Shown here: one piece after another, positions 1-14,857 of the stretch
Numbering within the stretch: the first letter of the stretch is position 1
Layout: the number at the start of each line of letters is the position of its first letter
NCBI GenBank assembly: GCA_014874185.1
Contig: JACWAF010000028.1
Location: forward strand, 1 to 45,082
Source of the DNA: Nitrospirota bacterium
GTDB taxonomy: Bacteria > Nitrospirota > Thermodesulfovibrionia > Thermodesulfovibrionales > JdFR-88
Length of the DNA stretch: 45,082 nt
Direction: 5' to 3'
Made by a program: the position numbers and the translations under genes
The notes under the pieces: model-generated
What the model saw: the letters and a program-made list of their open reading frames with translations, nothing else
Told to the model about the DNA's origin: nothing
Databases searched by the model: none

Positions 1-516
1 GAATCCAGGAGGCGGGTGACAGAGACTTTGCGGAGCTTATGTTTCAGTTCCCTCTTCATAGGGACAAAGAATGAATCGCTCGTGGGCCTGGGCGTGACCG
101 CGGCCGAGGCGGCCAGTTTCAGTTCCCTCTTCATAGGGACAAAGAATGAATCACAAAATATGAAGTTGCCGTCGCATGCGAAAACGAGCGTTTCAGTTCC
201 CTCTTCATAGGGACAAAGAATGAATCAGGCGTCCCCAAAGACCCTGGCATCTCCAAAGACCCGTTTCAGTTCCCTCTTCATAGGGACAAAGAATGAATCG
301 CCCTCGTGCTGGCGCTTGTGACCGTTGCTAGTGCGTTTCAGTTCCCTCTTCATAGGGACAAAGCATGAATCCGCACGGGTCTATGAGGACGCCAGGGTCT
401 TTGGAGAGTTTCAGTTCCCTCTTCATAGGGACAAAGAATGAATCAACCCAGCGCCGTGGTATACAGTAGCGGACGGAACGTTTCAGTTCCCTCTTCATAG
501 GGACAAAGAATGAATC
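1..516 (-). CRISPR. CRISPR array, 7 full repeats, open at left edge
   Basis: Seven complete 37-bp repeats start at 41, 116, 190, 263, 335, 408 and 480. The last five bases of another lie at 1-5, so the array continues outside the window. Seven spacers of 35-38 bp separate them. Read on the minus strand the repeat begins GATTCATTC and ends GAACTGAAAC, the usual 3' end of type I repeats. It holds a TCCCT/AGGGA stem with a six-base loop. Minus-strand transcription puts the leader at 517-619, next to cas4. The repeat at 335-371 has one substitution (AAAGC for AAAGA). Spacers 227-262 and 372-407 are related in opposite orientation (see findings). Confidence 0.98.
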
Positions 517-619
517 CGCTCTAAATTTACCATAAAAACGGGCAGTTTTTCAGCCCTTTGCCGCAAATTTTCCGCAACCCCTGTTTCTGCACTAAACCCC
601 GCTGATATTTGCGAAAAAA
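517..619 (-). promoter_or_regulatory. CRISPR leader
   Basis: This 103-bp AT-rich gap lies between the cas4 stop and the first (newest) repeat, on the side where new spacers should enter. It contains an inverted repeat AAAAAC/GTTTTT (534-539 and 545-550) and two copies of a CCGCAA motif around 562-577. No convincing -35/-10 pair is visible, so crRNA may come from a weak leader promoter or from readthrough of the co-directional cas operon. Confidence 0.75.
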
Positions 620-1204
620 CTAAAAGACATCGCCGCAGTAGTTCCTGTATTCGCAATCTATGCATTTATTCCTGTTTTCCACTGCCGGAGGCATGTACTT
701 TTCCAAAAGCATCCCGCGGATCTCATTTGCCATCGCCAATGCCTGCTCTTTGAGAGTGTGCGTAAGATCGAAGGCAACCGCATCATCAGCAGGTATCAGG
801 TAGACAAACCCCGTGCTTATTTCTTTCTTATAAATGTCCTCTAAAATCAGTGCATAACCGCAAAGCTGATAGACATGGTTCTTATGAGGCCTGCCGCTTG
901 TGAATTTAAAATCGACAGGAAAGCATTCGCCGTCCTTTTCGATCAGCATGTCTATCTTCCCGGAGAGGCCAAGCCGGTCCGAGCTTACTCCCTGATGAAA
1001 GAGCCTTTTCCCTTCGGCGAGGCCGTACTTATGGAACTTGCGCCTTTTTTCCAGCCGGTCAATCCGCAACTCCTCGGATTTTCCGCATTCCATCTTGAAA
1101 GTGGTTTTTTTCCCGACCGGCATGAGATACTGGTAATAAACCACTCGCGGGCAATACGCATATTGCTTCAGATCAGCCACCCTAAGGGATATCGGCCCCG
1201 CCAT
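620..1204 (-). CDS. cas4: CRISPR-associated Cas4 exonuclease
   Basis: Cas4 is a RecB-like Fe-S nuclease that trims and selects PAM-bearing prespacers with Cas1-Cas2. The 194-aa product has the four expected cluster cysteines (C18, and C181, C184, C190 in CIDCEYRNYC). It also has the RecB motifs GKIDMLIE and FPVDFKF followed by a QLCGYA helix. The frame is open back to a TTG at 1228. I prefer the ATG at 1204 because AAGGA lies 8 nt upstream and the protein then has normal family length. It overlaps the cas2 3' end by 23 nt, indicating translational coupling, and is the last cas gene before the leader. Confidence 0.93.
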   Translation of the reverse strand: MAGPISLRVADLKQYAYCPRVVYYQYLMPVGKKTTFKMECGKSEELRIDRLEKRRKFHKYGLAEGKRLFHQGVSSDRLGLSGKIDMLIEKDGECFPVDFKFTSGRPHKNHVYQLCGYALILEDIYKKEISTGFVYLIPADDAVAFDLTHTLKEQALAMANEIRGMLLEKYMPPAVENRNKCIDCEYRNYCGDVF

Positions 1205-1472
1205 CTTCCTTTTCCTTGAAATACTCAATGGAGTTTTTCATGTCCTTAGCGCATACGGGCAGGATCAGAAACCTGCCTGGTGTGTCCTTCATGGCTCTTT
1301 TCAGCTTAAGATAGAGCTCTTCGCGCCGATTTCTGCCTAGACTTCCTGAAAATCCGCTGAACTGGATCCGCTCAAGACCGTAATCCTTGCATATTTCGGC
1401 AACCTTGTTCCTTATCCCGTCTATTTCGATATCATAAAAAACGTAATGTATCAGCTCGTCCCGATTTACCAT
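1182..1472 (-). CDS. cas2: CRISPR-associated endoribonuclease-fold protein Cas2
   Basis: This 96-aa protein of normal Cas2 length is the dimeric core that bridges two Cas1 dimers during spacer integration. The ferredoxin-like first strand carries the family motif (HYVFYDIEIDG, with conserved D14). It is followed by the typical KVAEICKDYGLERIQFSGFSG helix-strand, the segment that normally contains the second conserved region. The ATG overlaps the cas1 stop by 7 nt (ATGGTAA), so cas1 and cas2 are translationally coupled. Its own 3' end overlaps cas4. Confidence 0.95.
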   Translation of the reverse strand: MVNRDELIHYVFYDIEIDGIRNKVAEICKDYGLERIQFSGFSGSLGRNRREELYLKLKRAMKDTPGRFLILPVCAKDMKNSIEYFKEKEDGGADIP

Positions 1473-2659
1473 TTAAAGGTAAAGGGCTTGTACTCTTTCC
1501 GTCCGCCCCTCATGAAGGACGCAAGATTTCTTGCCTGCATCTGGATAATGGAACGTATCTTGAATTTTTTGCCGTCGAAGCGCTCGGGGCTTTCGAGACG
1601 CTCCAGTATCTTTTCGCCGATGCCTTTTCTTGTTTCGGAGTCCAGAAGGCCGTCCGCGATCTTAATATCCTGCCCCAGGTTGACGTATGAGATTACCACT
1701 CTGTCCACTACAGGCTGGCGGAACTCCTCTACCAGGTCCAGAACAAGCGAGGGCTTGCCCGGCCTGTCCACATGCAGAAAACCCGCAAACGGCTCAAGCC
1801 CGGCGCTGACCAGCGCGCCCCAGATCATGGAATAGAGAATTCCGTATCCATAATTCAGGAGCGAGTTGACGGGGTCTGTCGCCCCTCTCGTCTCGCGTCC
1901 CATGAATTCGGTGCGGTTTGCCAGTATCGCCTTCACGCCCTCCCAGTAAAGCCTTCCAGCGGTTCCCTCCATTCCCATCAGAGAGCCGCGCGACTCCTCA
2001 ATATCTCTGCCCGTAACCAGTTCAACCTCCGCCTGCAATGCCTTGAGGCTGCCCGCTATGTAGGCCACAGACCTGAATCTATCGGGGTCCGCCTGTTTCA
2101 TGTATTTACCGAAATACCTGAGCAGCTTTTCCTGGTTTTTTATCTTCCCGCTGACGACGGCCCTCGAAAAAATCAACCCTCGCTCGTCGGAGAGGGCCTC
2201 CATCTGCCCCCGCCTTGCCTCCACTACGGCCGTGAGCATCGGGGAGGTGATCATGGCGTATGGCCTGTTTCCGCCGGAGAGAAAATGGAGTCCAATCCCC
2301 CTTTGGCAGAGTTCTCCTATAAGGTCGGTGGAGACGGTTATGCCTCTTGACGCGAGCACCACGTCCTTAATGCGGAAGAGGGGGAACTGGTATATGATTT
2401 CCTTGCCCTTTCTTACGAGCATGCGCTCGCTCTTTTTGGACAGAAACGCCCCGTAGCCGGAGACTATAACCTGGGACATATCTCCGGATTGAACCATCGT
2501 GATATCGTCGCCTATGCGATGTTCGCCCTCCGGCGTTTGGTCAATCAGAAAAGGTATAGGCTCGGCCTCGCCTGTGAAGAGGTTGAACTGGGCAGGCGGA
2601 AGGGACTTGACCGGTTGCTCGGACCCTGTATCGGCCCGTTTCGCATTGGCCCTTGGCAT
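1466..2659 (-). CDS. cas1: CRISPR-associated integrase Cas1, with N-terminal extension
   Basis: Cas1 is the metal-dependent integrase that inserts spacers at the leader-repeat junction. The catalytic residues are visible: E231 in MEGTAGRLYW, H296 in GFLHVDRPG and D308 or E311 in VLDLVEEFR. At 397 aa it is longer than the usual 320-345. The canonical start of the fold (SQVIVSGYGAFL) begins near residue 62. Residues 1-54 are proline- and charge-rich and match no domain I know; they are not a Cas4 fusion. Translation could instead start at M55 or M61. The SD before the first ATG (2659) is poor. A 133-bp gap with a strong hairpin separates it from cas5. Confidence 0.95.
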   Translation of the reverse strand: MPRANAKRADTGSEQPVKSLPPAQFNLFTGEAEPIPFLIDQTPEGEHRIGDDITMVQSGDMSQVIVSGYGAFLSKKSERMLVRKGKEIIYQFPLFRIKDVVLASRGITVSTDLIGELCQRGIGLHFLSGGNRPYAMITSPMLTAVVEARRGQMEALSDERGLIFSRAVVSGKIKNQEKLLRYFGKYMKQADPDRFRSVAYIAGSLKALQAEVELVTGRDIEESRGSLMGMEGTAGRLYWEGVKAILANRTEFMGRETRGATDPVNSLLNYGYGILYSMIWGALVSAGLEPFAGFLHVDRPGKPSLVLDLVEEFRQPVVDRVVISYVNLGQDIKIADGLLDSETRKGIGEKILERLESPERFDGKKFKIRSIIQMQARNLASFMRGGRKEYKPFTFKW

Positions 2660-2717
2660 ACAACCTATTTACCACATAGCGGGGACGCTTTCAAGAGGCA
2701 AGGGAAAGAGAATATTG

Positions 2718-2742
2718 ACGGGGGCGTGATATCCGCCCCCGT
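2718..2742. terminator. Hairpin between interference and adaptation cas genes
   Basis: A perfect 9-bp stem (ACGGGGGCG at 2718-2726 with CGCCCCCGT at 2734-2742) encloses a 7-nt loop. On the plus strand it is followed by TTTT. On the minus strand, the direction of the operon, no U-run follows, so it may attenuate or stabilise mRNA rather than terminate fully. It sits in the only sizeable gap inside the cas operon (2660-2792). Confidence 0.5.
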
Positions 2743-2792
2743 TTTGGTTCGATACGCCCGGTACAGTTGTCAAAGAGCGAAAAAATAAATAC

Positions 2793-3602
2793 CTACTTTG
2801 CCCGATACTCGCTGAATCCAGGCCCAGTGTTCACCAAACCGAGAGGGACAATAACATCTACAAATCGACGGTGCTTATCACGCTTAGGAGTCCTATCGGT
2901 ATAAGAACTTAATGTTTCCATGTCAGCCTCTTTACCAAAATCATCCAAGGCAACTATATGAAGGCGCTCAGGGGGTGTCCATGGCTTTTCATTTTGGACA
3001 GGCTGGGTAAAGTTGGGCCCAAGCTCTGTCCGGCGGGAAAATCCACAAAACTGGACGAAAGAGCCTCGCTTGCCTATATAAGATACATGGGGTGCAATTA
3101 AAACAAGTCTCTCCGCCAGTGTATCATCGCCTGCGCCAAGGTCGAAGGCCCACTGCCAAATACCGTGGTGGTGAACAATCTCACGATACGCTATGTTGGG
3201 GGTGTATGGTTTCAGCGGATCGGCATCCCTAGATTCCTGACGCACTTTGATAAACGTATGCGTAACGCATGCGGCTTCAGGTGGGGCAATGCGTACATCC
3301 AGATTAACCAGTGACCGCAAAAAATCAGCACATTCCACATCAGACAATCCTGCCCTGAAGGCCGCATCGACGAAAGCCATCTTGATACTATATGGAGTTG
3401 GAATAACGAGAGTCTTTCCCACCGAGCTGGTCGCCAAGCTAATCTTTAAAGAAAAAAGAGCAGCCGGTTGATATTCGACTACAAGCCATCGGCCAGGATC
3501 TGGAATACCAGCTACAGGTTTGGCTTCGTGCAGCGCCGCCAGGCGTTCTGCCGATATATTTTCTACACCCGCAACGGGCTGGATCTTCCTTTTCTTTGCC
3601 AT
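2793..3602 (-). CDS. cas5: CRISPR-associated Cas5 (Cascade subunit)
   Basis: This 269-aa RAMP protein is likely Cas5, which caps the 5' handle of the crRNA in type I Cascade. Supporting signs are a VVEYQPAALFSLK first strand, the LVIPTPYSIKMAFVDAAFR segment equivalent to the Cas5 helix after the conserved proline stretch, and a YIGKRGSFVQF motif like the YLGRR motif of Cas5 proteins. It lies directly after cas7 (2-nt gap; a GAGAG-like SD overlaps the cas7 end), the usual cas7-cas5 order. It is on the large side for Cas5. The name rests on these motifs plus position. Confidence 0.8.
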   Translation of the reverse strand: MAKKRKIQPVAGVENISAERLAALHEAKPVAGIPDPGRWLVVEYQPAALFSLKISLATSSVGKTLVIPTPYSIKMAFVDAAFRAGLSDVECADFLRSLVNLDVRIAPPEAACVTHTFIKVRQESRDADPLKPYTPNIAYREIVHHHGIWQWAFDLGAGDDTLAERLVLIAPHVSYIGKRGSFVQFCGFSRRTELGPNFTQPVQNEKPWTPPERLHIVALDDFGKEADMETLSSYTDRTPKRDKHRRFVDVIVPLGLVNTGPGFSEYRAK

Positions 3603-3604
3603 TA

Positions 3605-4615
3605 TTACTCTCTCGGAAGCTGCAGACCTGCCGCTATCTCAACTAATACTTTTGCCCCATCGGCAAGCGTGCTAAATGACTTGACGGTCACGCCATCTTT
3701 CTTGATATTGTTTAGCACAGCGGCCGCTTGTTCCATCTGACTACGATAGTTGTCGTTGAGCGGGCTGACCGTAGGAGCGGGAAGCGAGGTAGAGGAAACC
3801 GAGACAATACCCTCACAACCAACGATATGAGGATTCTGTGTATTGCGCTGCGCCCCTATGGGCTTAAGCAGAGTGGAAGCTAGGGCATGAATCAATGCTT
3901 TGCTGCGCGCTTTCCGTCCGTTCGCATCTACCACATATTGTCTTGTGATATCATTGAGGCCTATGCGATAGAGATCAAGGTTACAAATAAGCGCGTAAAT
4001 GCCCGAAGAAGCCGGACGGTGAAAGATCGCCTGCTTGCCGGTTACGGTCTCGCCGCCTGCCGCAGTTTCGCGCCCTTCAGGAGCGTACTTGACGTGGAAG
4101 TATTGTTCAGTCGACGTAAGCGGCTGACCAGCTCCATCTTCCGGAAGACCGACTACCCATCCGAATTCCGCAACCGATTTCCGGCCAACAGCACGCCCTC
4201 GTGTTACCAGTGTGCCAGCCATGTCTGTCAGACTGCAATCAGTGAGCATCTTTGCCATGACCTCCGACTCGGTCGCTTTTCTATTTTCTTTCTTCCCATT
4301 TTTATTAAATTCCTGCTCCTTTTCACAGAAGTCCACAAAATCCTGGTTAAGTGCATTGATCCGGTCCGCATCGTGCACTTTCGCACCCGGAGAAAGCGGC
4401 TCCCCAGCTTCCTTGAGTAACGGGATCATGTGTTCCACCAGAATGTGCTTAAACATGTCTCCGCTTACCGCATTTACTACGGCACGTTTTCCTTTTTGAT
4501 CAATGATGTACACCATGCGGGTTTGTTGCTGGTTCCCTTCAGTACCTTCATTGTTCAGACTGTGAAGGTCAAGCGTGATGCGAGCGCAAAGCGACAAAGA
4601 ATGTACAATTGCCAT
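3605..4615 (-). CDS. cas7: CRISPR-associated Cas7 (DevR/Csa2-type Cascade backbone)
   Basis: Cas7 polymerises along the crRNA spacer to form the Cascade backbone. This 336-aa protein begins with a SLSLCARITLDLHSLNNEG RAMP strand-helix and has the RGRAVGRKSVAEFGWVVGLP segment typical of DevR/Csa2-type Cas7. A later conserved stretch carries NLDLYRIGLND and RSKALIHALAS, where the family has its G-rich and basic elements. The start is clear: AAAGGAG lies 6 nt before the ATG at 4615. A 27-bp gap separates it from cas8. Confidence 0.88.
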   Translation of the reverse strand: MAIVHSLSLCARITLDLHSLNNEGTEGNQQQTRMVYIIDQKGKRAVVNAVSGDMFKHILVEHMIPLLKEAGEPLSPGAKVHDADRINALNQDFVDFCEKEQEFNKNGKKENRKATESEVMAKMLTDCSLTDMAGTLVTRGRAVGRKSVAEFGWVVGLPEDGAGQPLTSTEQYFHVKYAPEGRETAAGGETVTGKQAIFHRPASSGIYALICNLDLYRIGLNDITRQYVVDANGRKARSKALIHALASTLLKPIGAQRNTQNPHIVGCEGIVSVSSTSLPAPTVSPLNDNYRSQMEQAAAVLNNIKKDGVTVKSFSTLADGAKVLVEIAAGLQLPRE

Positions 4616-4642
4616 GATTAGCTCCTTTTCATAAATAATGCG

Positions 4643-5086
4643 CTATTTTAAGTCTGGATCAGACGGTTCCTGCGCAACATCTGGTGCCTCTGTAACGTCT
4701 TCTTCGCGCGGCTCCCTGCAAGACCCATAGGCACATAGCAGAGACCCGACTAAAGAAGCACCGTATGTCTCTACCAGGCTTGCAAATGCTGAAAACTCTT
4801 CTGTGGTAACATTACGAGATGCCTGCTTACCCATCTCCCATCTGCGGGCATTCTCCGCATTATATTTAGAGATGAAGTCGGCAACGGTCTCAATTAACGG
4901 CTCGTTACCCGGCAAGCTGCGCCTACGCCGCAAGTCATGTAAGAGATCGTAACGAATCTCCCGGTAATCCGGTTTTTTCATGGCTTTCTGGGCCTGTGCG
5001 CTTACTGTCGCCTTACGTACTGCGGCGGAGATGGCCTGGAAACCGGAGTCTTTAAGAATTTCAGTCAATTTAGGTGCCATTCCCAT
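4643..5086 (-). CDS. cas11: Candidate Cas11 small subunit from internal start in cas8
   Basis: Within cas8, codons for FFRRIVMGM contain a consensus Shine-Dalgarno AGGAGG at 5098-5093, exactly 6 nt before an in-frame ATG at 5086. Translation from it would give a 147-aa, largely helical, basic protein equal to Cas8 residues 439-585. Its size matches Cas11 small subunits. In types I-B, I-C and I-D, Cas11 is known to be made by internal initiation inside the large-subunit gene, and no separate cas11 gene is present here. An SD this strong, at this spacing and exactly at the domain boundary, is unlikely by chance, but expression is not shown. Confidence 0.6.
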   Translation of the reverse strand: MGMAPKLTEILKDSGFQAISAAVRKATVSAQAQKAMKKPDYREIRYDLLHDLRRRRSLPGNEPLIETVADFISKYNAENARRWEMGKQASRNVTTEEFSAFASLVETYGASLVGSLLCAYGSCREPREEDVTEAPDVAQEPSDPDLK

Positions 5087-6400
5087 AACAATCCTCCTGA
5101 AGAAATCTGTGCGAAATGATCGGACCTTACGCCCCTGTTCCCGTGCCCGAATGAGAAAGGGTCCATAGTACTCCATAAATGTTATTAAGGCGAAGATCGA
5201 CCCCTCGCCCCGTTTTTCCGAAAAACGTCTGTAGGCGACAAGCATACCTATCTCATCGGAGTGATCGTCCTGAAGCCCCCGGATGACGCGCTGGTGTTCG
5301 TCCAGAATAGCCAGCCAATCCTCTGCATCCTGCCTATTATTAATAGGAAACCATCCTGGTAAAGCCATAGTTGCCATGGCAGAGACAGCGTTGGCGTTAC
5401 CGAGGGACTGGTAATTAGTCACCATCACGCCCGAGATTGCTTCAGCAGGGGTTTTCCCATGCAGGTTCAGACCCGGAAGCACCTCTTCATCTTGATCGTG
5501 GTATTCCTCCGAATGGCGAATTAGCAGTTCAGCAAGTTTGAGGACGGCGAGAGTATCAAGCTTTGGAGGGCCGCCATATACTTTAGACCCACGCAGCTGG
5601 CGTGCAACAGATTCGAGAGCGCGAATCGATATGTCATGGGGGAGTGGACACAGAAGCCGGACATGTTCGGCCTTGGTGCCTTGAAAAAAGGGGCAGGCAA
5701 CGCGGAAGTATCCACGGTATTTCAACCATTCTACAAAAGGATCTGCCCACTGTTCTTTAGTCTTGTCATTACGCCCGGTACTATCCGGTTTGAGGCGACT
5801 ATATCCCTTGGCTGCCAAAGGTGTAAAAAGTTGTACGGTGCTGACCTTCCAATCAAGTCCGGAGGGCATACGATGTGAAAAGGCCTTAAACGATGCAACC
5901 ATTTCGTCGTAAAATTCTTCAGGGTCTAGGCGAACAATTATTTCATGGACTTTATTGGCAGTCTTGTAACCTTTCAACTTATTGAGAACCTGGAGAAGAC
6001 GCCAATCCTCACGCAATTCTTCCATCTGCATCATTTGCTGAGTTTCAGAATCAACTTCTTTTCCTCTTCTTTTTCCGCGAGGGTCGAAGAGTTTCTTTCT
6101 TCGGTCAGCCTTGGCCTTCTCGGCTTTATAATCAACGAAATCTGATACTCTATCTGGGACTTTTACTTTTTCTTTTGCTTTGAGGAAGGGGTAACCCGCT
6201 ATCTGCGGAATCTGCTCAAAAACACTTGAGGTGACTGGTTCAGCAAGACAGACCTCAAACTCGGATTCCCGCTCAACCAGGCGGACAGTATCTATAGCAG
6301 GGATCGAAGCAAGCAGGTCAGCTAATCCCACGGAGGCAAACACATCAGCATGTGTGCCTGTCCTCTTGGGGACCCGAAAGACCTGATAATTTTCATTCAT
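4643..6400 (-). CDS. cas8: CRISPR-associated Cas8-family large subunit
   Basis: Probable Cascade large subunit (585 aa), which reads the PAM. Cas8 proteins diverge quickly and I cannot fix the subtype from sequence alone; the call rests on its place between cas3 and cas7 and on size. The frame is open to 6436, but the ATG at 6400 has AAGGAG 6 nt upstream. It overlaps the cas3 stop by 8 nt (GATGAATGA), so it is translationally coupled to cas3. No zinc-finger cysteine set is obvious. The C-terminal 147 residues look like a small-subunit domain with its own internal ribosome binding site (see the Cas11 entry). Confidence 0.75.
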   Translation of the reverse strand: MNENYQVFRVPKRTGTHADVFASVGLADLLASIPAIDTVRLVERESEFEVCLAEPVTSSVFEQIPQIAGYPFLKAKEKVKVPDRVSDFVDYKAEKAKADRRKKLFDPRGKRRGKEVDSETQQMMQMEELREDWRLLQVLNKLKGYKTANKVHEIIVRLDPEEFYDEMVASFKAFSHRMPSGLDWKVSTVQLFTPLAAKGYSRLKPDSTGRNDKTKEQWADPFVEWLKYRGYFRVACPFFQGTKAEHVRLLCPLPHDISIRALESVARQLRGSKVYGGPPKLDTLAVLKLAELLIRHSEEYHDQDEEVLPGLNLHGKTPAEAISGVMVTNYQSLGNANAVSAMATMALPGWFPINNRQDAEDWLAILDEHQRVIRGLQDDHSDEIGMLVAYRRFSEKRGEGSIFALITFMEYYGPFLIRAREQGRKVRSFRTDFFRRIVMGMAPKLTEILKDSGFQAISAAVRKATVSAQAQKAMKKPDYREIRYDLLHDLRRRRSLPGNEPLIETVADFISKYNAENARRWEMGKQASRNVTTEEFSAFASLVETYGASLVGSLLCAYGSCREPREEDVTEAPDVAQEPSDPDLK

Positions 6401-8831
6401 CGGCTGCTCCTTCTGCTGTCGCCCGCTGGTCAGCAAGCCTGAGTGTCCGGGTTAAATATGCCACAAGCGGCCACCATTCAGCAAGATTATCTGCGCCCGT
6501 TGTGGCTTTTAGCAGTTTCTCGACCTTGTGCTTTCGAAGATTGGCCAGCTCCGTTTGATCAGGTATCCGCCCGAAAACCTGGTTGATCGCAACCTCCCAT
6601 CGGCCGCAAAGTTTGGGGGGAAACAATTCCAAGTCCGTCTGCCACCATCCGCCATGGTGCGCGAGAATAGCGGCAACGCACGCCGATGCAACATATGACT
6701 TATGTTTGTGCGGCACCGAAGTCAACAAATCCATTAAGAACACCCTGCTATAGTACGCCCCCGCAGGTGCATGCGGTGGCCGATGAATTCCTGAGTTTCG
6801 CTCCCTTTGCCGGTCCTCACGCTTACCAGAATCGAAATCCGTATGCGCCAACGGAACCATGTATTGATAGCTCGGATCTTGTGCCCGTTGGCTCGCTTCC
6901 GCCCATCGTTGCCACGCATCCTGAAGTTTTCCAAGGTCATGGAGGAGTGCACAAGCACGGACGGCCTCCAACAAACACTGGACAGTAAGCCCATACCGTA
7001 GCTTCATACCCCTGGCAATCAGCCCTGTACGCCAATGCTCGCGGTCAAGCCTCTTTTCCGCCTCTGCGGCAACCAATCGTGCATGTTCAGCCCACGGCTC
7101 AGCGCGCATTGGTGAATATCCAGGACGAGGCGGTTCAATCCTTTCCGGGCTTTCGTATGTTCCCGGAATGCCAAGGCGAAGGCCAATATCAGAATCATAC
7201 GCTGCTACGGAGGGACGGAGACACACCACATAAGTGCTCTTGACGTCTTCCCGATTCTTTAACTCCTTCCATGGCGCTTCATCATCTCCGGACCAGTACC
7301 AACCAATCTGCCTGCATTCATTCCTAAATAGAGATGAAAGCGTCCACCGGGATATATTAACCCCCTCGCGATGAGCGGGGTTATCAGGCCGCCGATCTTC
7401 ATCATTGACGATTACACGTATGCTCTCCGTATCCCCGCCCCTTATCAGATCAGCTACCCTCTTATGATTGCGCAAAAAAGCATTCTGCTCTATTCGGCCT
7501 AAACACTTGCCAAGCCGCATATGCCAACCTTCTCTTAATGCCCGCTCATCATTCCGGCCATGTGCTTCTTGCACCCATTCAGCAGACAAACGCGGATGGA
7601 GTGATCCTTCGCCGGACCTATGAAGAAGTTCTCTCGTCTTTGTCAGCGTTTCATCTTCCCGGTGAACATCACCGTATGGCAGCCACGCCCGTTCCTCCAT
7701 CGGAAGCTGGTAGACATGAACTGTCCCCTTTTCACCGGCAAACCTTGCACACCGCCCGGCCCGTTGAACCAAAGCATTCATTGGACATAACTCTGTATGA
7801 AGGTGATCAGCGGAGATGTCTATACCAGCTTCGATGACTTGCGTTGCAACAAGAATCGCATCGGAATTCCGCTCCTCTTTGCCAAAGAGGGAACGCAAAA
7901 TTTCTTCTTTGGCCCTTCGGTCTTCCTTAAAGAAGCGAGAATGCAACAAAATAACCTTGTTTTCTTTACCTTCCCCCCTCAGAGTCTGCATCAACTCTTC
8001 AAACATTTTCTGAGCTCGCTTAACAGTATTAAGCAATACTATCGAACGTCCATCATGACATCTGAGAACAGCATCTGCTGAAAGCGGCTCTTTCTCTAAT
8101 GTAAAATTTTTGGTAACTGTCGAGACGCTCGGCACTGATGCCATAAGGGCAGCCGTTTCTGCATCGTCTTCTGGGACAGAAACCGTCTGTAAGCCATCGG
8201 CAAGGACCTGTTCAAGCGGCAGCGTTGCTGTCGCGGTCATCCATACTGATTGACAGAGGTCCCGAAACAGATGGAGGCCGGCAACTGCCGTCAAAAAGGC
8301 TCTGTGAGGCTCCATAAGATGAAATTCATCGAAGACAACAAGTGACCCGACTGGAATTGCGGCATTCACGTTACAAAGGCGGATCGAAATTCCATAAGGT
8401 GCATTGAGAACTCCGCTCAAGACCTGATCATATGTCGTTATTATGATTCGGCCTCTGTTGAAGAACCGATCATCCGGTTGTTCACCGGTCTGTAGGGTAA
8501 CGAAAGGGGAAATAATCTCTCGCCCCCGTTCATCTATTTCCCCCTCAACCGGTAGCCCGAGCCTAGTAGCTGCTTCACAAGCTTCATAATAAATTCCCTG
8601 GGCGAGCGTCCTAAGAGGGAGCGCGTAAATCAAACGAGCCGGGTGCTCTTCCCAACCGGGGAAAAGAAAAGGAGCTAAGACTGACCACGTTTTCCCAGCG
8701 CCTGTTGGCGCACGTAGGACTATGTTTCGGCCTTCATACAATAACCGAGCAACTTTGACCTGATATTCAAAGGGATTATATCCTGTGAGCTGGCAGAAGA
8801 ATTTAGCATAGATGGCTTCAAAGCTACTCAT
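6393..8831 (-). CDS. cas3: CRISPR-associated helicase-nuclease Cas3 (helicase-HD order)
   Basis: Cas3 is recruited by target-bound Cascade to unwind and degrade DNA. The 812-aa protein has an N-terminal SF2 helicase: P-loop APTGAGKT (41-48), DEFH box (168-171), MTATAT motif III (198-203) and a later QVIEAGIDI/QRAGRCAR motif V-VI block. The HD nuclease is at the C-terminus: H631-D632 in LLHDLGK, H725-H726 in AHHGGWW and D801 in RLADQR. Most Cas3 proteins have HD first. The reversed order is known mainly from I-G (formerly I-U) and some other variants. The gene starts 3 nt after cas6 and overlaps cas8. Confidence 0.95.
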   Translation of the reverse strand: MSSFEAIYAKFFCQLTGYNPFEYQVKVARLLYEGRNIVLRAPTGAGKTWSVLAPFLFPGWEEHPARLIYALPLRTLAQGIYYEACEAATRLGLPVEGEIDERGREIISPFVTLQTGEQPDDRFFNRGRIIITTYDQVLSGVLNAPYGISIRLCNVNAAIPVGSLVVFDEFHLMEPHRAFLTAVAGLHLFRDLCQSVWMTATATLPLEQVLADGLQTVSVPEDDAETAALMASVPSVSTVTKNFTLEKEPLSADAVLRCHDGRSIVLLNTVKRAQKMFEELMQTLRGEGKENKVILLHSRFFKEDRRAKEEILRSLFGKEERNSDAILVATQVIEAGIDISADHLHTELCPMNALVQRAGRCARFAGEKGTVHVYQLPMEERAWLPYGDVHREDETLTKTRELLHRSGEGSLHPRLSAEWVQEAHGRNDERALREGWHMRLGKCLGRIEQNAFLRNHKRVADLIRGGDTESIRVIVNDEDRRPDNPAHREGVNISRWTLSSLFRNECRQIGWYWSGDDEAPWKELKNREDVKSTYVVCLRPSVAAYDSDIGLRLGIPGTYESPERIEPPRPGYSPMRAEPWAEHARLVAAEAEKRLDREHWRTGLIARGMKLRYGLTVQCLLEAVRACALLHDLGKLQDAWQRWAEASQRAQDPSYQYMVPLAHTDFDSGKREDRQRERNSGIHRPPHAPAGAYYSRVFLMDLLTSVPHKHKSYVASACVAAILAHHGGWWQTDLELFPPKLCGRWEVAINQVFGRIPDQTELANLRKHKVEKLLKATTGADNLAEWWPLVAYLTRTLRLADQRATAEGAADE

Positions 8832-8834
8832 ATT

Positions 8835-9797
8835 TCATTCCACCTTGTACCATCCGTTGCCGAAGACCGCGTCGTCGCCTATGTGCACGAATTCGCCCGC
8901 GATGAGCATAGGGATAAATTCTTCCAGGTCTCCTTCGAAAGATATCCTCCCCATAAAACCGCTCTGGTCATGAGTGGCTTGCTGGGTCCTGCTCTTTCTT
9001 CGAGTCTCGACCCACCTCGCATCGGAGCGCGCCTTTTTGATCATCATGGCCCTTTCGGCAAGCCCCTTGAAATCCATATCGAGCGGGCCGCCGCAATAGG
9101 CAGACGACAGGGCGTTCAGCCTGTCCCGCAGTCTTCTTATTATGTGGTGGAATTCAGGGTCCCTCACGACAGCGCTTTTCCCCTTCTCGCCAGTGGGGTT
9201 GTATTTGAGCCTGGTGGGTGTGAGAAACCGGAGGGTCATCCGTCCGCTGGCGAGGTCATCCGCCTTCTTCAAAAGTTCCCTGCCTGTTATCCGCTGAATG
9301 GAATTCGTGACGACGCCCGACCTGGAGTCATATACAGTCGAGGATGTCCCGTCCTTCACGGAGGCGATCTCCGCAAGCCTGAACCTGCCCCTGTTCAGGC
9401 CAATCCCCGACTTGCCCACCTCGATAAAAGGCATGATGATGTACGGAAAATAATCTATGCGGTCTCCGATAAGCACCAAATCGAAACGAAGTGGAGTTGA
9501 AGGCGTGTATAAGGCCGTTTCGGAAAGGGGAGGCTTGAAGACATACCCTCTTGGCGGGTTCTGCAGCCGCTTTGCCTGGGCAAGCCCCAAGGGATTGAAG
9601 ACAAGGGAGTATGCGCACCTGGACCGGAGCATGCACTCCGAGCAGTCCATGCCGAGGTCTGTGCACACGAGCTTTCGGAGCGAGGAGCCGAACGCGCCCC
9701 TCAGCACGTTCCCCTTGTTGAAAGCAGGCAGGTGGATCTCCGTCTCGGGCAGAAGGGTGATCCTGAGGTGAGCCAGTTCGAAGCCTTCGAGCATCAT
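8835..9797 (-). CDS. cas6: CRISPR pre-crRNA processing endoribonuclease Cas6
   Basis: Cas6 cleaves the repeat in pre-crRNA. This 320-aa RAMP protein has the N-terminal LRGAFGSSLRKLVC segment and a four-cysteine motif (C45, then CSECMLRSRCAYS) seen in one large Cas6 family. The C-terminal half has the G-rich signature HIGDDAVFGNGWYKV that ends Cas6 folds. It is the first gene of the cas operon. Two adjacent ATGs (9797, 9794) follow a perfect -10 box by 2 or 5 nt, so the mRNA may be leaderless. Codon use looks more GC-rich than in the cas3-cas8-cas7-cas5 block. Confidence 0.92.
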   Translation of the reverse strand: MMLEGFELAHLRITLLPETEIHLPAFNKGNVLRGAFGSSLRKLVCTDLGMDCSECMLRSRCAYSLVFNPLGLAQAKRLQNPPRGYVFKPPLSETALYTPSTPLRFDLVLIGDRIDYFPYIIMPFIEVGKSGIGLNRGRFRLAEIASVKDGTSSTVYDSRSGVVTNSIQRITGRELLKKADDLASGRMTLRFLTPTRLKYNPTGEKGKSAVVRDPEFHHIIRRLRDRLNALSSAYCGGPLDMDFKGLAERAMMIKKARSDARWVETRRKSRTQQATHDQSGFMGRISFEGDLEEFIPMLIAGEFVHIGDDAVFGNGWYKVE

Positions 9798-9837: not shown

Positions 9838-10299
9838 TGGGCATTAAAAAGTGTACCACCTGGGGTCTCCCTCGGGGTTAGTACGATGTGAGAGGCGGTT
9901 TTGGATAGAGGGACCGGATTGCCGAACACATAAAAAGGGCCTCGAATATTACACACCAATTCCATGAATTCCAATTTCCCTTTTATTTACACTTAGTCCG
10001 TTTTTTGTGGTCTCTCGTTAGCTGAACACGTTAAACACTGCGGAACACCTAGTTTTGGGCTTTTGGGGGCGGGTAGAGAGAGGTAGACACCCCGGGGGGT
10101 GAGGGCATCCGGAGAGGAATCGTTTGAGGATACACTTCTATCGTGCCGACGAAAAAGAAAAAGTGAATAAGCGAGTTTGGGCGCGGTTTTATCTGCTACT
10201 TTCACCGATATGTCCACAGAAGATAATCGCTTTGAGAAGCAGCGCTTCATTAAGAGAAAGAAACTTCGGAACCAGCCTTTCAACTCCGAAGTACAGTAA
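9838..10299. other. Gene-poor stretch between cas operon and integrase remnant
   Basis: I see no credible gene here. The reading frames (for example 9993-10283 on the minus strand) encode proteins of unusual composition with no recognisable motif. The segment includes AT-rich runs near 9945-10000 and GC-rich tracts near 10060-10100. It looks like degraded mobile DNA, consistent with the recombinase fragment that follows. Confidence 0.4.
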
Positions 10300-10652
10300 G
10301 GGCAGCGAGTGGCGTTTACTGGTGAAGAGGCGTTTGGAATGCAACCTCCTTTTTCATAAAGATGGGAAACCCCTTTTCCAGATGCAAGTTGACAGGGCTT
10401 TCAAAAAGGCCTGTAAGCTGGCTGGCATCAAGGACTTCCGTTTCAATGACTTGAGGCACACATTTGCATCTCTTCCAGGATGGGATTGACCTCTACACGG
10501 TTCAGAAACTTCTTGGCCATAAGGATGGCAGGATGACGCAGCGTTATGCCCATCTCACTCACGACAGGTTGGCTTCTGCCGTGATGAGTCTGGAGCGGTT
10601 ACGTCATAATTCTGCCATAGTTGAGGAGAAAATCGGAGATGCTCGCCCGTAA
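10300..10652 (+). pseudogene. Tyrosine recombinase (phage-type integrase), frameshifted C-terminal remnant
   Basis: Two overlapping plus-strand frames together encode the catalytic C-terminus of a tyrosine recombinase. The first frame (to 10489) gives RAFKKACKLAGIKDFRFNDLRHTFAS, containing the R of box II; the usual histidine of HxxR is N here. The second frame (from about 10464) continues with GIDLYTVQKLLGHKDGRMTQRYAHL, containing the LGH motif and nucleophilic tyrosine. A frameshift lies at about 10470-10490, inside the segment that normally reads HTFASWL.MAG. The N-terminal arm-binding and core domains are absent. The fragment ends 16 bp from the 3' end of tRNA-Glu, a typical attachment site, so it is probably a relic of an integrated element. 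Confidence 0.85.
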
Positions 10653-10668
10653 CACCCCTTGATTTTTT

Positions 10669-10744
10669 TGGCGGTCCCAACGGGATTCGAACCCGTGTTT
10701 TAGCCTTGAGAGGGCCACGTCCTAGGCCTCTAGACGATGGGACC
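10669..10744 (-). tRNA. tRNA-Glu (CUC)
   Basis: A 76-nt cloverleaf on the minus strand. The acceptor stem is GGTCCCA/TGGGACC, the anticodon loop is CTCTCAA (anticodon CUC), the T-loop is GGTTCGAATC, and GCCA is encoded at the 3' end. It is the second gene of a tRNA pair. The adjacent recombinase remnant makes its 3' end a likely attachment site. Confidence 0.96.
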
Positions 10745-10747
10745 TTT

Positions 10748-10821
10748 TGGCTGGGGAGAGAGGATTCGAACCCCTATAAGCAGATCCAGAATCTGCCGTC
10801 CTGCCCTTGGACGACTCCCCA
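10748..10821 (-). tRNA. tRNA-Gln (CUG)
   Basis: A 74-nt cloverleaf on the minus strand. The acceptor stem is TGGGGAG/CTCCCCA, the anticodon stem is GCAGA/TCTGC around loop TTCTGGA (anticodon CUG), the T-loop is GGTTCGAATC, and GCCA is encoded. Only 3 nt separate it from tRNA-Glu downstream, so both must be processed from one transcript. Confidence 0.95.
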
Positions 10822-13066: not shown

Positions 13067-13338
13067 ATGGGCGGACGGAGCGCCGCCCGCGATTTCAGGC
13101 GTTTAGCACTGAAATGTATGAGATTGTAAATATTTCCGGCAACGGCTATGGCTCCTTGCCGGTTCATAACTAAGGTGTCATTCCCGCAACCCCGCCTTGG
13201 CGGGGGCGTCGTGAATCCAACCCACCCCCGTCCCCTCCCAGGAGGGGATTAAGGGGTGGGTAGATTCCGGACACGCCGGAATAACAACGAGGTAATCATA
13301 GGAGCAATGCTTAAATCTAATTTACTTTTCGTTTGGTG
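13067..13338. repeat. Intergenic block with nested palindromic repeat (13177-13285)
   Basis: No gene is visible. GGGCGG/CCGCCC forms a hairpin at about 13067-13086. A repeat unit bounded by GTCATTCC (13177) and GGAATAAC (to 13285) contains CCCGCC-TT-GGCGGG and two nested stems, CCCACCCC/GGGGTGGG (13221-13228, 13253-13260) and TCCCCTCC/GGAGGGGA (13231-13238, 13241-13248). A fragment of the same nested stem recurs after khpA (16664-16698). The terminal inverted repeats suggest a non-autonomous mobile repeat. Confidence 0.65.
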
Positions 13339-13419
13339 GTCATTGCGAGGAGCGCAGGCGACGAAGCAATCTTGAAGTGATTAATTTGAGCCGGATTGCT
13401 TCGCTTCGCTTGCAATGAC
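13339..13419. repeat. 81-bp terminal-inverted-repeat element (GTCATTGCGAGG type)
   Basis: The element begins GTCATTGCGAGGAGCG and ends CGCTTGCAATGAC. The inner arms CGAAGCAATC and GGATTGCTTCG extend the inverted repeat. From memory, elements with these ends are scattered in many unrelated bacterial genomes as MITE-like repeats. It lies between the nested repeat and the truncated MOSC copy. Confidence 0.8.
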
Positions 13420-13446
13420 GATGATAACAGGTTTTTCAGCATCCTG

Positions 13447-13560
13447 TTAAAATATACCCATGAAGGGCAAAGTCGTCTCCCTTAACATCAGCCCGGCAAA
13501 GGGCACGCGGAAGACCCCGGTGGAGACCGCCGTGCTGAAAGCGAACTTCGGCATGGAGGG
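13447..13560 (+). pseudogene. Truncated 5' copy of the MOSC gene (direct repeat flanking hicAB)
   Basis: These 114 bp match 14242-14355 with two differences (13450 A/G; 13492 C/T, silent). They include the -10-like TAAAAT, the ATG at 13460 and the first 33 codons of the MOSC gene. Homology stops abruptly after GGAGGG at 13560, where the hicAB cassette begins. An inverted repeat AACAGG/CCTGTT (13426-13431, 13443-13448) just upstream may be the original regulatory site of the MOSC gene, now separated from the intact copy. Confidence 0.9.
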
Positions 13561-13580
13561 TACGGAAATCGCCCTCACTT

Positions 13581-13910
13581 TTACCGGCTTAATTTAGCGG
13601 CGGCAAGGCGATTGAGGCTTATCCCGGTTTCGGCTGACTGTATAGCGAGGGCCCTGTGGGTTTCAGGGGTCACCCGGACAACAAATTTACCGCTATACCG
13701 GCGGTTTGCTATCGGCTCCGGTATGGGATCGCCCGTCTTTTTCATGTCCTCTATCACTCCAGCGACAACCTTCCGAATGCCTTTTAACGCGCCCTCCGGA
13801 GTTTTCGCCAGCCAGCTCAGGCTTGGAAATTCGGCGCACAGGCCGACATATTCCTTGTCTTCCGCAGACCATGTTACCCTGTAAGTATAATGATCATCCT
13901 TCAGTATCAT
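13581..13910 (-). CDS. hicB: HicB-family antitoxin
   Basis: A 109-aa antitoxin. The N-terminal part has the degenerate RNase-H-like HicB fold (YTYRVTWSAEDKEYVGLCAEFPSLSWLAKTPEGAL). The C-terminal 35 residues form a ribbon-helix-helix DNA-binding domain (KFVVRVTPETHRALAIQSAETGISLNRL). It should bind and block HicA and repress its own promoter. It overlaps hicA by 17 nt. The operon runs opposite to the surrounding MOSC gene and lies exactly between the two MOSC direct repeats. Confidence 0.92.
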   Translation of the reverse strand: MILKDDHYTYRVTWSAEDKEYVGLCAEFPSLSWLAKTPEGALKGIRKVVAGVIEDMKKTGDPIPEPIANRRYSGKFVVRVTPETHRALAIQSAETGISLNRLAAAKLSR

Positions 13911-14154
13911 GGTTCACCTCCAAAATCCCGATAGCTTTAAGCACTTGTTTCACCTGGTATGCCTTGGCCTTCCCTTTATCGTTTTGAATATTGATGCGCG
14001 GATCGCCCTGCCAAGGCGTTTTGTAAATTCTATGGCTACTGCCCTTATGCCGGGCTGGTCCGAAATAATAATCGCAGACCAGGCATAAATCCGTAAATCT
14101 TATATTCTGCGGATTGCTTCTCATCATCAAGACCGTTTTAGCAATCCTGTCCAT
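13894..14154 (-). CDS. hicA: HicA-family mRNA interferase toxin
   Basis: HicA is a small dsRNA-binding-fold toxin that cleaves mRNA. The 86-aa product has the conserved catalytic histidine in GSSHRIYKTPW and the family ending INIQNDKGKAKAYQVKQVLKAI. The start is the ATG at 14154; a TTG at 14157 is also in frame. The -10 box ends 5 nt before the ATG and no SD is present, so the message is probably leaderless. hicA first, then overlapping hicB, is the normal order. Confidence 0.92.
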   Translation of the reverse strand: MDRIAKTVLMMRSNPQNIRFTDLCLVCDYYFGPARHKGSSHRIYKTPWQGDPRINIQNDKGKAKAYQVKQVLKAIGILEVNHDTEG

Positions 14155-14159
14155 CAAAA

Positions 14160-14189
14160 ATTATAATATCAATATTAGTATCATGTCAA
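14160..14189 (-). promoter_or_regulatory. Promoter and likely operator of hicAB
   Basis: TTGACA (14189-14184) and TATAAT (14165-14160) are both perfect and 18 bp apart on the minus strand. The spacer holds an imperfect palindrome centred on AATATT (ATAC..AATATT..GTAT-like arms). This is a plausible site for the ribbon-helix-helix domain of HicB. Confidence 0.75.
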
Positions 14190-14254
14190 TAAAAAAACAT
14201 TTGCGCAGCAAGCCTCTCCCCCACAATCCCTCATAAATCCATTAGAATATACCC

Positions 14255-14689
14255 ATGAAGGGCAAAGTCGTCTCCCTTAACATCAGTCCGGCAAAGGGCA
14301 CGCGGAAGACCCCGGTGGAGACCGCCGTGCTGAAAGCGAACTTCGGCATGGAGGGGGATGCGCACGCCTCCGCCCTGTGGCACAGGCAGGTGAGCCTGCT
14401 TGCGGAGGAAAGCATCCAGAAAATGCGCGAAAAGGGGCTTGCGGTTGCAGAGGGGGACTTCGCGGAGAACATCACCACGCGGGGGCTGGACCTACTCTCG
14501 CTCCCTGTGGGCACAAAGATCCGAATTGGGGAGACCCTCTGCGAAATTACCCAGCACGGAAAGCATTGCCACACCAAATGCGAGATATACAGGCTGGCCG
14601 GAGACTGCATCATGCCCACCGAGGGCATCTTCGTGAAGGTGCTTGTGGGCGGCCCGGTGAGGCGTGGCGACCCCATCACAATAGAGTAA
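14255..14689 (+). CDS. MOSC domain protein
   Basis: A 144-aa single-domain MOSC protein. MOSC domains bind the molybdenum cofactor or transfer sulfur to it (as in the MoCo sulfurase C-terminus and YiiM). The domain is seen as VVSLNISPAKGTRKTPV, the GMEGDAHA turn, LAVAEGDFAENITTRGLDL, and the conserved cysteine segment around KHCHTKCEIYRLAGDC. It is followed by mogA after a repeat element, which supports a role in molybdenum cofactor metabolism. There is no SD. TAGAAT lies 6 nt before the ATG, suggesting a leaderless mRNA. Its first 33 codons are duplicated upstream of hicAB. Confidence 0.9.
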   Translation: MKGKVVSLNISPAKGTRKTPVETAVLKANFGMEGDAHASALWHRQVSLLAEESIQKMREKGLAVAEGDFAENITTRGLDLLSLPVGTKIRIGETLCEITQHGKHCHTKCEIYRLAGDCIMPTEGIFVKVLVGGPVRRGDPITIE

Positions 14690-14720
14690 GAAGGAAATCA
14701 CTTATGGACTTTTTAATAAT

Positions 14721-14840
14721 ATGGGAAAATCCCTCCTGAACCTCCCTTTGCCAAAGGGAGGGAATGCTTTCCAAGGAATTGTATCTTTTTGGGAGGGATT
14801 ACCCCTCTTTGCAAAAGAGGGGCGAGGGGAGATTTTCCAT
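14721..14840. repeat. Palindromic repeat family A, copy 1
   Basis: Bounded by ATGGGAAAATCCCTCC and GGGGAGATTTTCCAT, which are inverted copies. Inside are two palindromes, CCTCCCTTTG/CAAAGGGAGG and CCCCTCTTT/AAAGAGGGG. It fills the gap between MOSC and mogA. Related copies are at 16764-16918, 19667-19746 and 20457-20578. Confidence 0.9.
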
Positions 14841-14857
14841 AAGATATTAATTCAATT

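Follow-up and report, generated by a model that had tools for sequence, protein, structure and literature searches.

A hicAB toxin–antitoxin cassette enclosed by 114-bp direct copies of a MOSC gene start in a Nitrospirota bacterium

Insertion with long target duplication has been reported for restriction-modification systems, the duplications measuring about 100 bp (PMC3874152, PMC1643837). The original descriptions (Nobusato et al. 2000; Furuta et al. 2010) are cited here through PMC3874152, PMC1643837 and PMC3031569, according to whose accounts the cases came from the comparison of two strains, whereas the locus described below is known from its occupied allele alone. A second precedent are the effector-immunity arrays of Vibrio cholerae, for which homology-facilitated illegitimate recombination has been proposed as the process that leaves partial gene copies as scars, and which is rare where it has been measured (PMC5361080). 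The entry of toxin–antitoxin pairs into chromosomes without mobile-element enzymes is poorly understood, and the locus presented here, and especially an array in another genome of the same order (G141), provide concrete junctions.

The locus lies in a 45,082-nt stretch of a Nitrospirota genome (hereafter the window; contig JACWAF010000028.1 of assembly GCA_014874185.1, order Thermodesulfovibrionales). A repeat search and direct comparison identified two direct repeats of 114 nt, D1 and D2, which are identical at 112 positions (98.2%), start 795 nt apart and enclose a 681-bp insert that holds hicA and hicB as its sole genes (Table 1), reproducing the coordinates and identity put forward in the initial annotation. 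D1 consists of 13 nt of leader and the first 101 nt of the MOSC frame (33 codons and 2 nt) and is broken off at the cassette edge; its reading frame runs into 11 foreign codons to give a 45-aa ORF, and 20 bp separate the end of D1 from the hicB stop codon. D2 continues unbroken into a MOSC gene of 144 codons, confirming that the upstream copy is cut at the edge of the cassette and that the host gene has been left intact.

Table 1. Features of the hicAB–MOSC region, in window coordinates (a dot marks features given without strand).
Feature	Coordinates	Strand	Evidence
Dispersed palindromic REP/MITE-like repeat, right end abutting D1	13329..13447	.	84% identical copy at G000:C31:3297-3418, plus partial copies
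Left copy D1: 13-bp leader and 101 nt of MOSC, truncated	13447..13560	+	112/114 match to 14242-14355
45-codon remnant ORF: MOSC start and 11 cassette-edge codons	13460..13597	+	ORF list
Insert, 681 bp	13561..14241	.	G+C 47.7%
hicB antitoxin, 109 aa, intact, C-terminal HicB domain PF05534	13581..13910	-	Profile match and purifying selection
hicA toxin, 86 aa, intact, overlapping the hicB start	13894..14154	-	G-S-S-H motif, relatives, predicted fold
hicAB promoter, TTGACA-18-TATAAT	14160..14189	-	12/12 consensus positions
Right copy D2, running into intact MOSC	14242..14355	+	Repeat comparison
Complete MOSC-domain gene, 144 aa, first in the conserved MOSC-mogA-ccdA-rpsP run	14255..14689	+	Domain and synteny

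A chance origin of the repeat is ruled out by a flank-versus-flank BLASTN comparison (E = 5e-54). The 114-bp block occurs in two copies in the 2.43-Mb genome and a third was not found there, which also rules out a dispersed repeat or a gene family as its source. Among the 757 kb of this genome that were scanned, D1 and D2 form the sole closely spaced long repeat pair of coding sequence; the remaining such pairs are non-coding and resemble dispersed repeats. As the genome is a metagenome-type draft of 42 contigs, known here from a single assembly, the structure might reflect faulty assembly or the mixing of strains. We regard such an artefact as highly improbable, since the sequences meeting at 13560/13561 share nothing likely to confuse an assembler, D1 and D2 are distinguished by two bases, with 68 bp as their longest exact run, and other assemblies of the order contain similar structures.

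The two mismatches between the copies are both silent. One (13450 A versus 14245 G) lies ten bases 5′ of the ATG, and the other (13492 C versus 14287 T) is synonymous, exchanging the serine codons AGC and AGT. It is the dead copy D1 that carries AGC, as do 11 of 12 relatives, and the functional D2 that carries the derived AGT. With at most one change in D1, either the duplication event was recent or D1 and D2 represent alleles of two strains. Two differences are too few to choose between routes of integration.

At 47.7% G+C, the insert stands beside a window average of 55.4% and a MOSC gene of 60.5%. Its genes form a minus-strand operon in which hicA comes first, followed by the overlapping hicB. 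HicB matches PF05534 with 45.2 bits (cut-off 21), whereas HicA scores 18.7 bits against PF07927, under the cut-off of 27. The assignment of HicA is based on other evidence: it shares with its relatives a G-S-S-H motif (the G-x-S-H context with the conserved catalytic histidine), is 57–60% identical to plasmid-encoded proteins that bear the annotation toxin HicA and ~51% identical to HicA-like toxins of phages, and has a confidently predicted structure (pLDDT 89.6), for which the sole plausible PDB matches are to the HicA of 6g26, although these are not significant (TM 0.64–0.67 by target length, E >1). The ATG at 14154, rather than the TTG at 14157, is most probably the start codon of hicA. 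Relative to their closest relatives, both genes evolve under purifying selection (hicA, dN ~0.10 and dS ~1.3; hicB, dN 0.06 and dS 0.8–1.0). Given intact genes, purifying selection, a promoter of perfect consensus and the evidence for the identity of HicA and HicB, the pair looks functional from its sequence. The location of HicA relatives of 50–60% identity on plasmids and prophages further suggests that the pair is mobile, and the proposal that hicAB is an acquired cassette is supported.

What travels with hicAB can be read from its nearest relatives in the order, which have 72–82% DNA identity. Homology to them is bounded by the –35 box (~14190) and the hicB stop codon (13580), ending there on both sides, and the 71 bp of the insert beyond this block are unique. 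The relatives have only the promoter and genes in common, with no conserved element ends, and most of their hicAB pairs lack flanking gene copies. The repeats are thus not intrinsic to the cassette; relatives carrying hicAB without a repeat had been named in the initial annotation as a finding that would count against its account. In line with that annotation, neither a transposase nor an integrase is encoded within the 681 bp. No terminal sequence travels with hicAB, the repeat search found no inverted-repeat pair at the insert ends, and the insert is present just once in the 2.43-Mb genome, all of which speaks against a transposon or site-specific element.

Some integrating elements are known to rebuild the 5′ part of the gene they target. 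The insert might accordingly be what is left of a mobile element, or a non-autonomous version of one, served by an integrase or transposase in trans or moving as an integron cassette, and the start of MOSC would be its long attachment site. A decayed tyrosine recombinase gene with stops and frameshifts (10124–10652) does lie 3 kb away, outside the insert. It adjoins genes for tRNA-Glu and tRNA-Gln (10669–10821), in the interval that separates the CRISPR locus from hicAB, and is likely the remnant of an element integrated at a tRNA, with tRNA-Glu as its own target; we therefore rejected this fragment as the mobiliser of hicAB. An integron cassette was likewise rejected, as the genome encodes no integron integrase above the TIGR02249 cut-off and the repeat is MOSC coding sequence. 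Taken with the absence of conserved ends among the relatives' hicAB and the single copy of the insert in the genome, these observations render a mobile-element origin highly improbable. The CRISPR locus comprises an array with seven repeats of the GTTTCAGTTCCC... type (window positions 41–535) and a minus-strand type I cas locus (620–9797) encoding Cas4, Cas1, Csa2/DevR (Cas7), Cas3 and Cas6.

At the target site, MOSC, mogA and ccdA are syntenic in most relatives, with rpsP next in some. Members of the family have one MOSC copy each, preceded by sequence that differs from that in the window, and none of the MOSC loci examined across the order has hicAB beside MOSC. The window locus itself was compared only outside its genus, and the MOSC genes met in the contig scan were all distant. 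Two dispersed repeats have entered beside MOSC in the window genome, namely the palindromic element that abuts D1 and a repeat between MOSC and mogA. The latter, at 14713–14857, belongs to an abundant type (CCCCTCTTTGCAAAAGAGGGG) with ~40 more places in the genome; it splits MOSC from mogA, two genes that in many relatives abut or overlap. A second, partial relative of MOSC is encoded elsewhere in the same genome (G000:C14:4374-4502; residues 99–141, 65% identity). As D2 retains the –10 box and lacks the –35 region present upstream of D1, MOSC expression may be altered.

The initial annotation had suggested a search for other hicAB cassettes flanked by partial copies of the next gene, and similar forms do occur in the order. 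Across the order, 118 hicA loci were informative (PF07927 matches, mostly of other HicA subfamilies). We surveyed them for direct repeats, ≥60 bp long and ≥90% identical, that span hicA with a gap of 300–1600 bp. Repeats of this kind spanned 8 of the 118 loci, compared with 19 of 1065 control positions (1.8%) in the same stretches (Fisher p = 0.003); as the control positions are non-independent and several of the matches appear to be intergenic repeats, this enrichment around hicA is suggestive only. Inspection yielded two strong parallels. The clearest is G141:C63 (L271; 387–2770), where three cassettes (433–1099, 1244–1786 with hicBA, and 1922–2662) lie between an outer-membrane-protein-like gene and deoA, each trailed by a copy of the 3′ end of the former gene and the intergenic region. 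In the congeners G035, G024 and G142, the outer-membrane-protein-like gene directly precedes deoA, representing the empty site. The trailing copies are 97–100% alike and closer to each other than to the 3′ end of the resident gene itself, a pattern that imported alleles fit better than the copying of resident sequence. In the other parallel, G016:C32 (L220; 4692–7045), three copies, 80–95% identical, of a methylase 3′ end alternate with a DUF4258/DUF2283 pair and a hicBA pair that follow the methylase gene, whose product has an M.Eco57I C-terminal domain. A third candidate in G061 (L152/L219), with 284-bp repeats around hicA, is weaker than these two, the flanking gene being a member of a multi-copy cytochrome-like family.

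Several further matches were set aside. The 97-bp repeats around a related hicAB at L069 appear to derive not from a host gene but from a group II intron remnant, which is what we take their sequence to be, and the repeats at L155, L158, L251, L268 and L273, as well as the longer pair at L260, appear to be of intergenic or terminator type. L260 also contains two stretches, G159:C48 2065–2163 and 3556–3655, that are 92% identical and each hold the promoter and initial codons of a small gene lying upstream of a DUF2283-like gene; these copies flank the small gene/DUF2283-like gene pair together with a hicBA pair, and by their sequence would constitute a further gene-start duplication around a toxin–antitoxin pair. 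Upstream of an intact hicAB at L065, a fragment matching the last 29 hicB codons (G141:C53, 1028–1114) suggests turnover of hicAB at one site.

We favour a one-ended, homology-anchored integration of hicAB upstream of MOSC, to which we assign a probability of roughly 45%. It would have begun with the uptake of DNA from a related strain whose hicAB already sat immediately upstream of MOSC. The MOSC part of this donor fragment would have paired with the resident MOSC by homologous recombination, while an illegitimate joining event would have placed its hicAB end in the resident reading frame of MOSC, at codon 34. The outcome would be a single new joint at 13560/13561, with the dead start of the resident MOSC on its left and a whole MOSC on its right. 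The joint is illegitimate in appearance. Several observations speak for this route: the anatomy of the repeats and the insert; the need for one new joint alone; the silent differences between D1 and D2, with the common AGC in D1 and the derived AGT in D2, which would be expected of alleles of two strains or of a recent event; the G141 copies, which are not resident sequence; the lack of element ends in the relatives' hicAB; HicA relatives on plasmids and prophages, which point to a mobile pair; and the similar scars in V. cholerae for which homology-facilitated illegitimate recombination has been proposed (PMC5361080). A donor with hicAB directly upstream of MOSC was not found among the MOSC loci examined in the order, and the rarity of such recombination where it has been measured (PMC5361080) likewise weighs against this route. 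The order of events and the donor are our inference, as is selection by HicA against loss of the cassette through the repeats.

Its close rival, possible if somewhat doubtful, is a local duplication, in which a staggered break or a template switch during replication copied the 114-bp start of the resident MOSC around a captured hicAB fragment; in the strict sense, this is what insertion with long target duplication denotes for restriction-modification genes. The repeat length corresponds to the 'order of 100 bp' of restriction-modification insertions (PMC3874152), the copies are 98.2% identical and the block is found nowhere else in the genome, and G016, where small gene pairs, including a hicBA pair, are interspersed with three methylase 3′-end copies, offers an analogous arrangement. 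Two differences in 114 bp are moreover compatible with local duplication followed by drift, which counts against the anchored route. Local duplication would, however, need two new joints instead of one and leaves unaccounted for repeated copies in G141 that are unlike the end of the resident gene itself. An unselected relic would also be expected to accumulate mostly non-silent changes and both differences are silent, a weak argument at n = 2. Least probable, and in our judgement very much so, is a Campbell-type single crossover that integrated a small circle bearing both hicAB and the start of MOSC. Such a circle, 795 bp long and with a single 114-bp homology, would produce precisely the observed structure in one step, but no such circle or plasmid is known, and the MOSC start and hicAB would still have had to be joined earlier.

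Whichever way the repeats arose, recombination between D1 and D2 would delete the cassette and restore a normal MOSC locus. The addiction behaviour of toxin–antitoxin pairs is established, and as hicAB appears intact, such a loss should be counter-selected by the HicA toxin. Chromosomal toxin–antitoxin pairs do not always stabilise their surroundings (PMC2654758), and the direct repeats of this locus permit a clean test of whether HicA counter-selects against the loss of its own cassette. A broader and unlikely reading would have HicAB-type pairs spreading in the order as autonomous cassettes that are recurrently added to gene ends with duplications of 100–300 bp, toxin addiction locking in direct repeats that would otherwise be deleted quickly.

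Compared with described HicAB systems, the pair has the usual HicB-domain antitoxin, G-x-S-H toxin and near-consensus promoter before the operon, and differs in a HicA of 86 aa that falls below the Pfam cut-off and in its hicA-then-hicB order, which its relatives share. The ccdO157 islet of Escherichia coli is likewise a lone toxin–antitoxin pair between housekeeping genes with no mobile element, but a long duplication of a neighbouring gene is not mentioned there (PMC2654758). The orphan immunity arrays of V. cholerae (PMC5361080) resemble the favoured reading in having one homologous side, one illegitimate joint and a partial gene copy as the scar; there, the anchor is the region upstream of the effector gene and immunity genes remain, whereas in the present locus what is left is a 5′ gene fragment, and hicAB is the cargo.

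The anatomy of the locus matches insertion with long target duplication. As in the restriction-modification cases, a two-gene unit of the addiction type, without a mobile-element enzyme, is flanked by direct target copies of ~100 bp, and transposase, integrase and terminal inverted repeats are all lacking; the difference is the cargo, a type II toxin–antitoxin pair in place of a restriction-modification system. The initial annotation, whose overall interpretation is partly supported, had called the long duplication unusual, which is correct for a transposon; it is, however, a known signature of this class of insertion (PMC3874152, PMC1643837). The literature searched, whose coverage leaves out most subscription papers, held no report of a long target duplication for a toxin–antitoxin pair. 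The duplication is real and probably recent, ordinary in kind of mechanism and likely the work of ordinary machinery. New is the recurrence of a known, little-studied footprint around a toxin–antitoxin pair, a new class of cargo: like restriction-modification systems, these pairs arrive bounded by partial copies of core genes, and, if this holds true, the two classes of addiction genes would share one enzyme-independent route.
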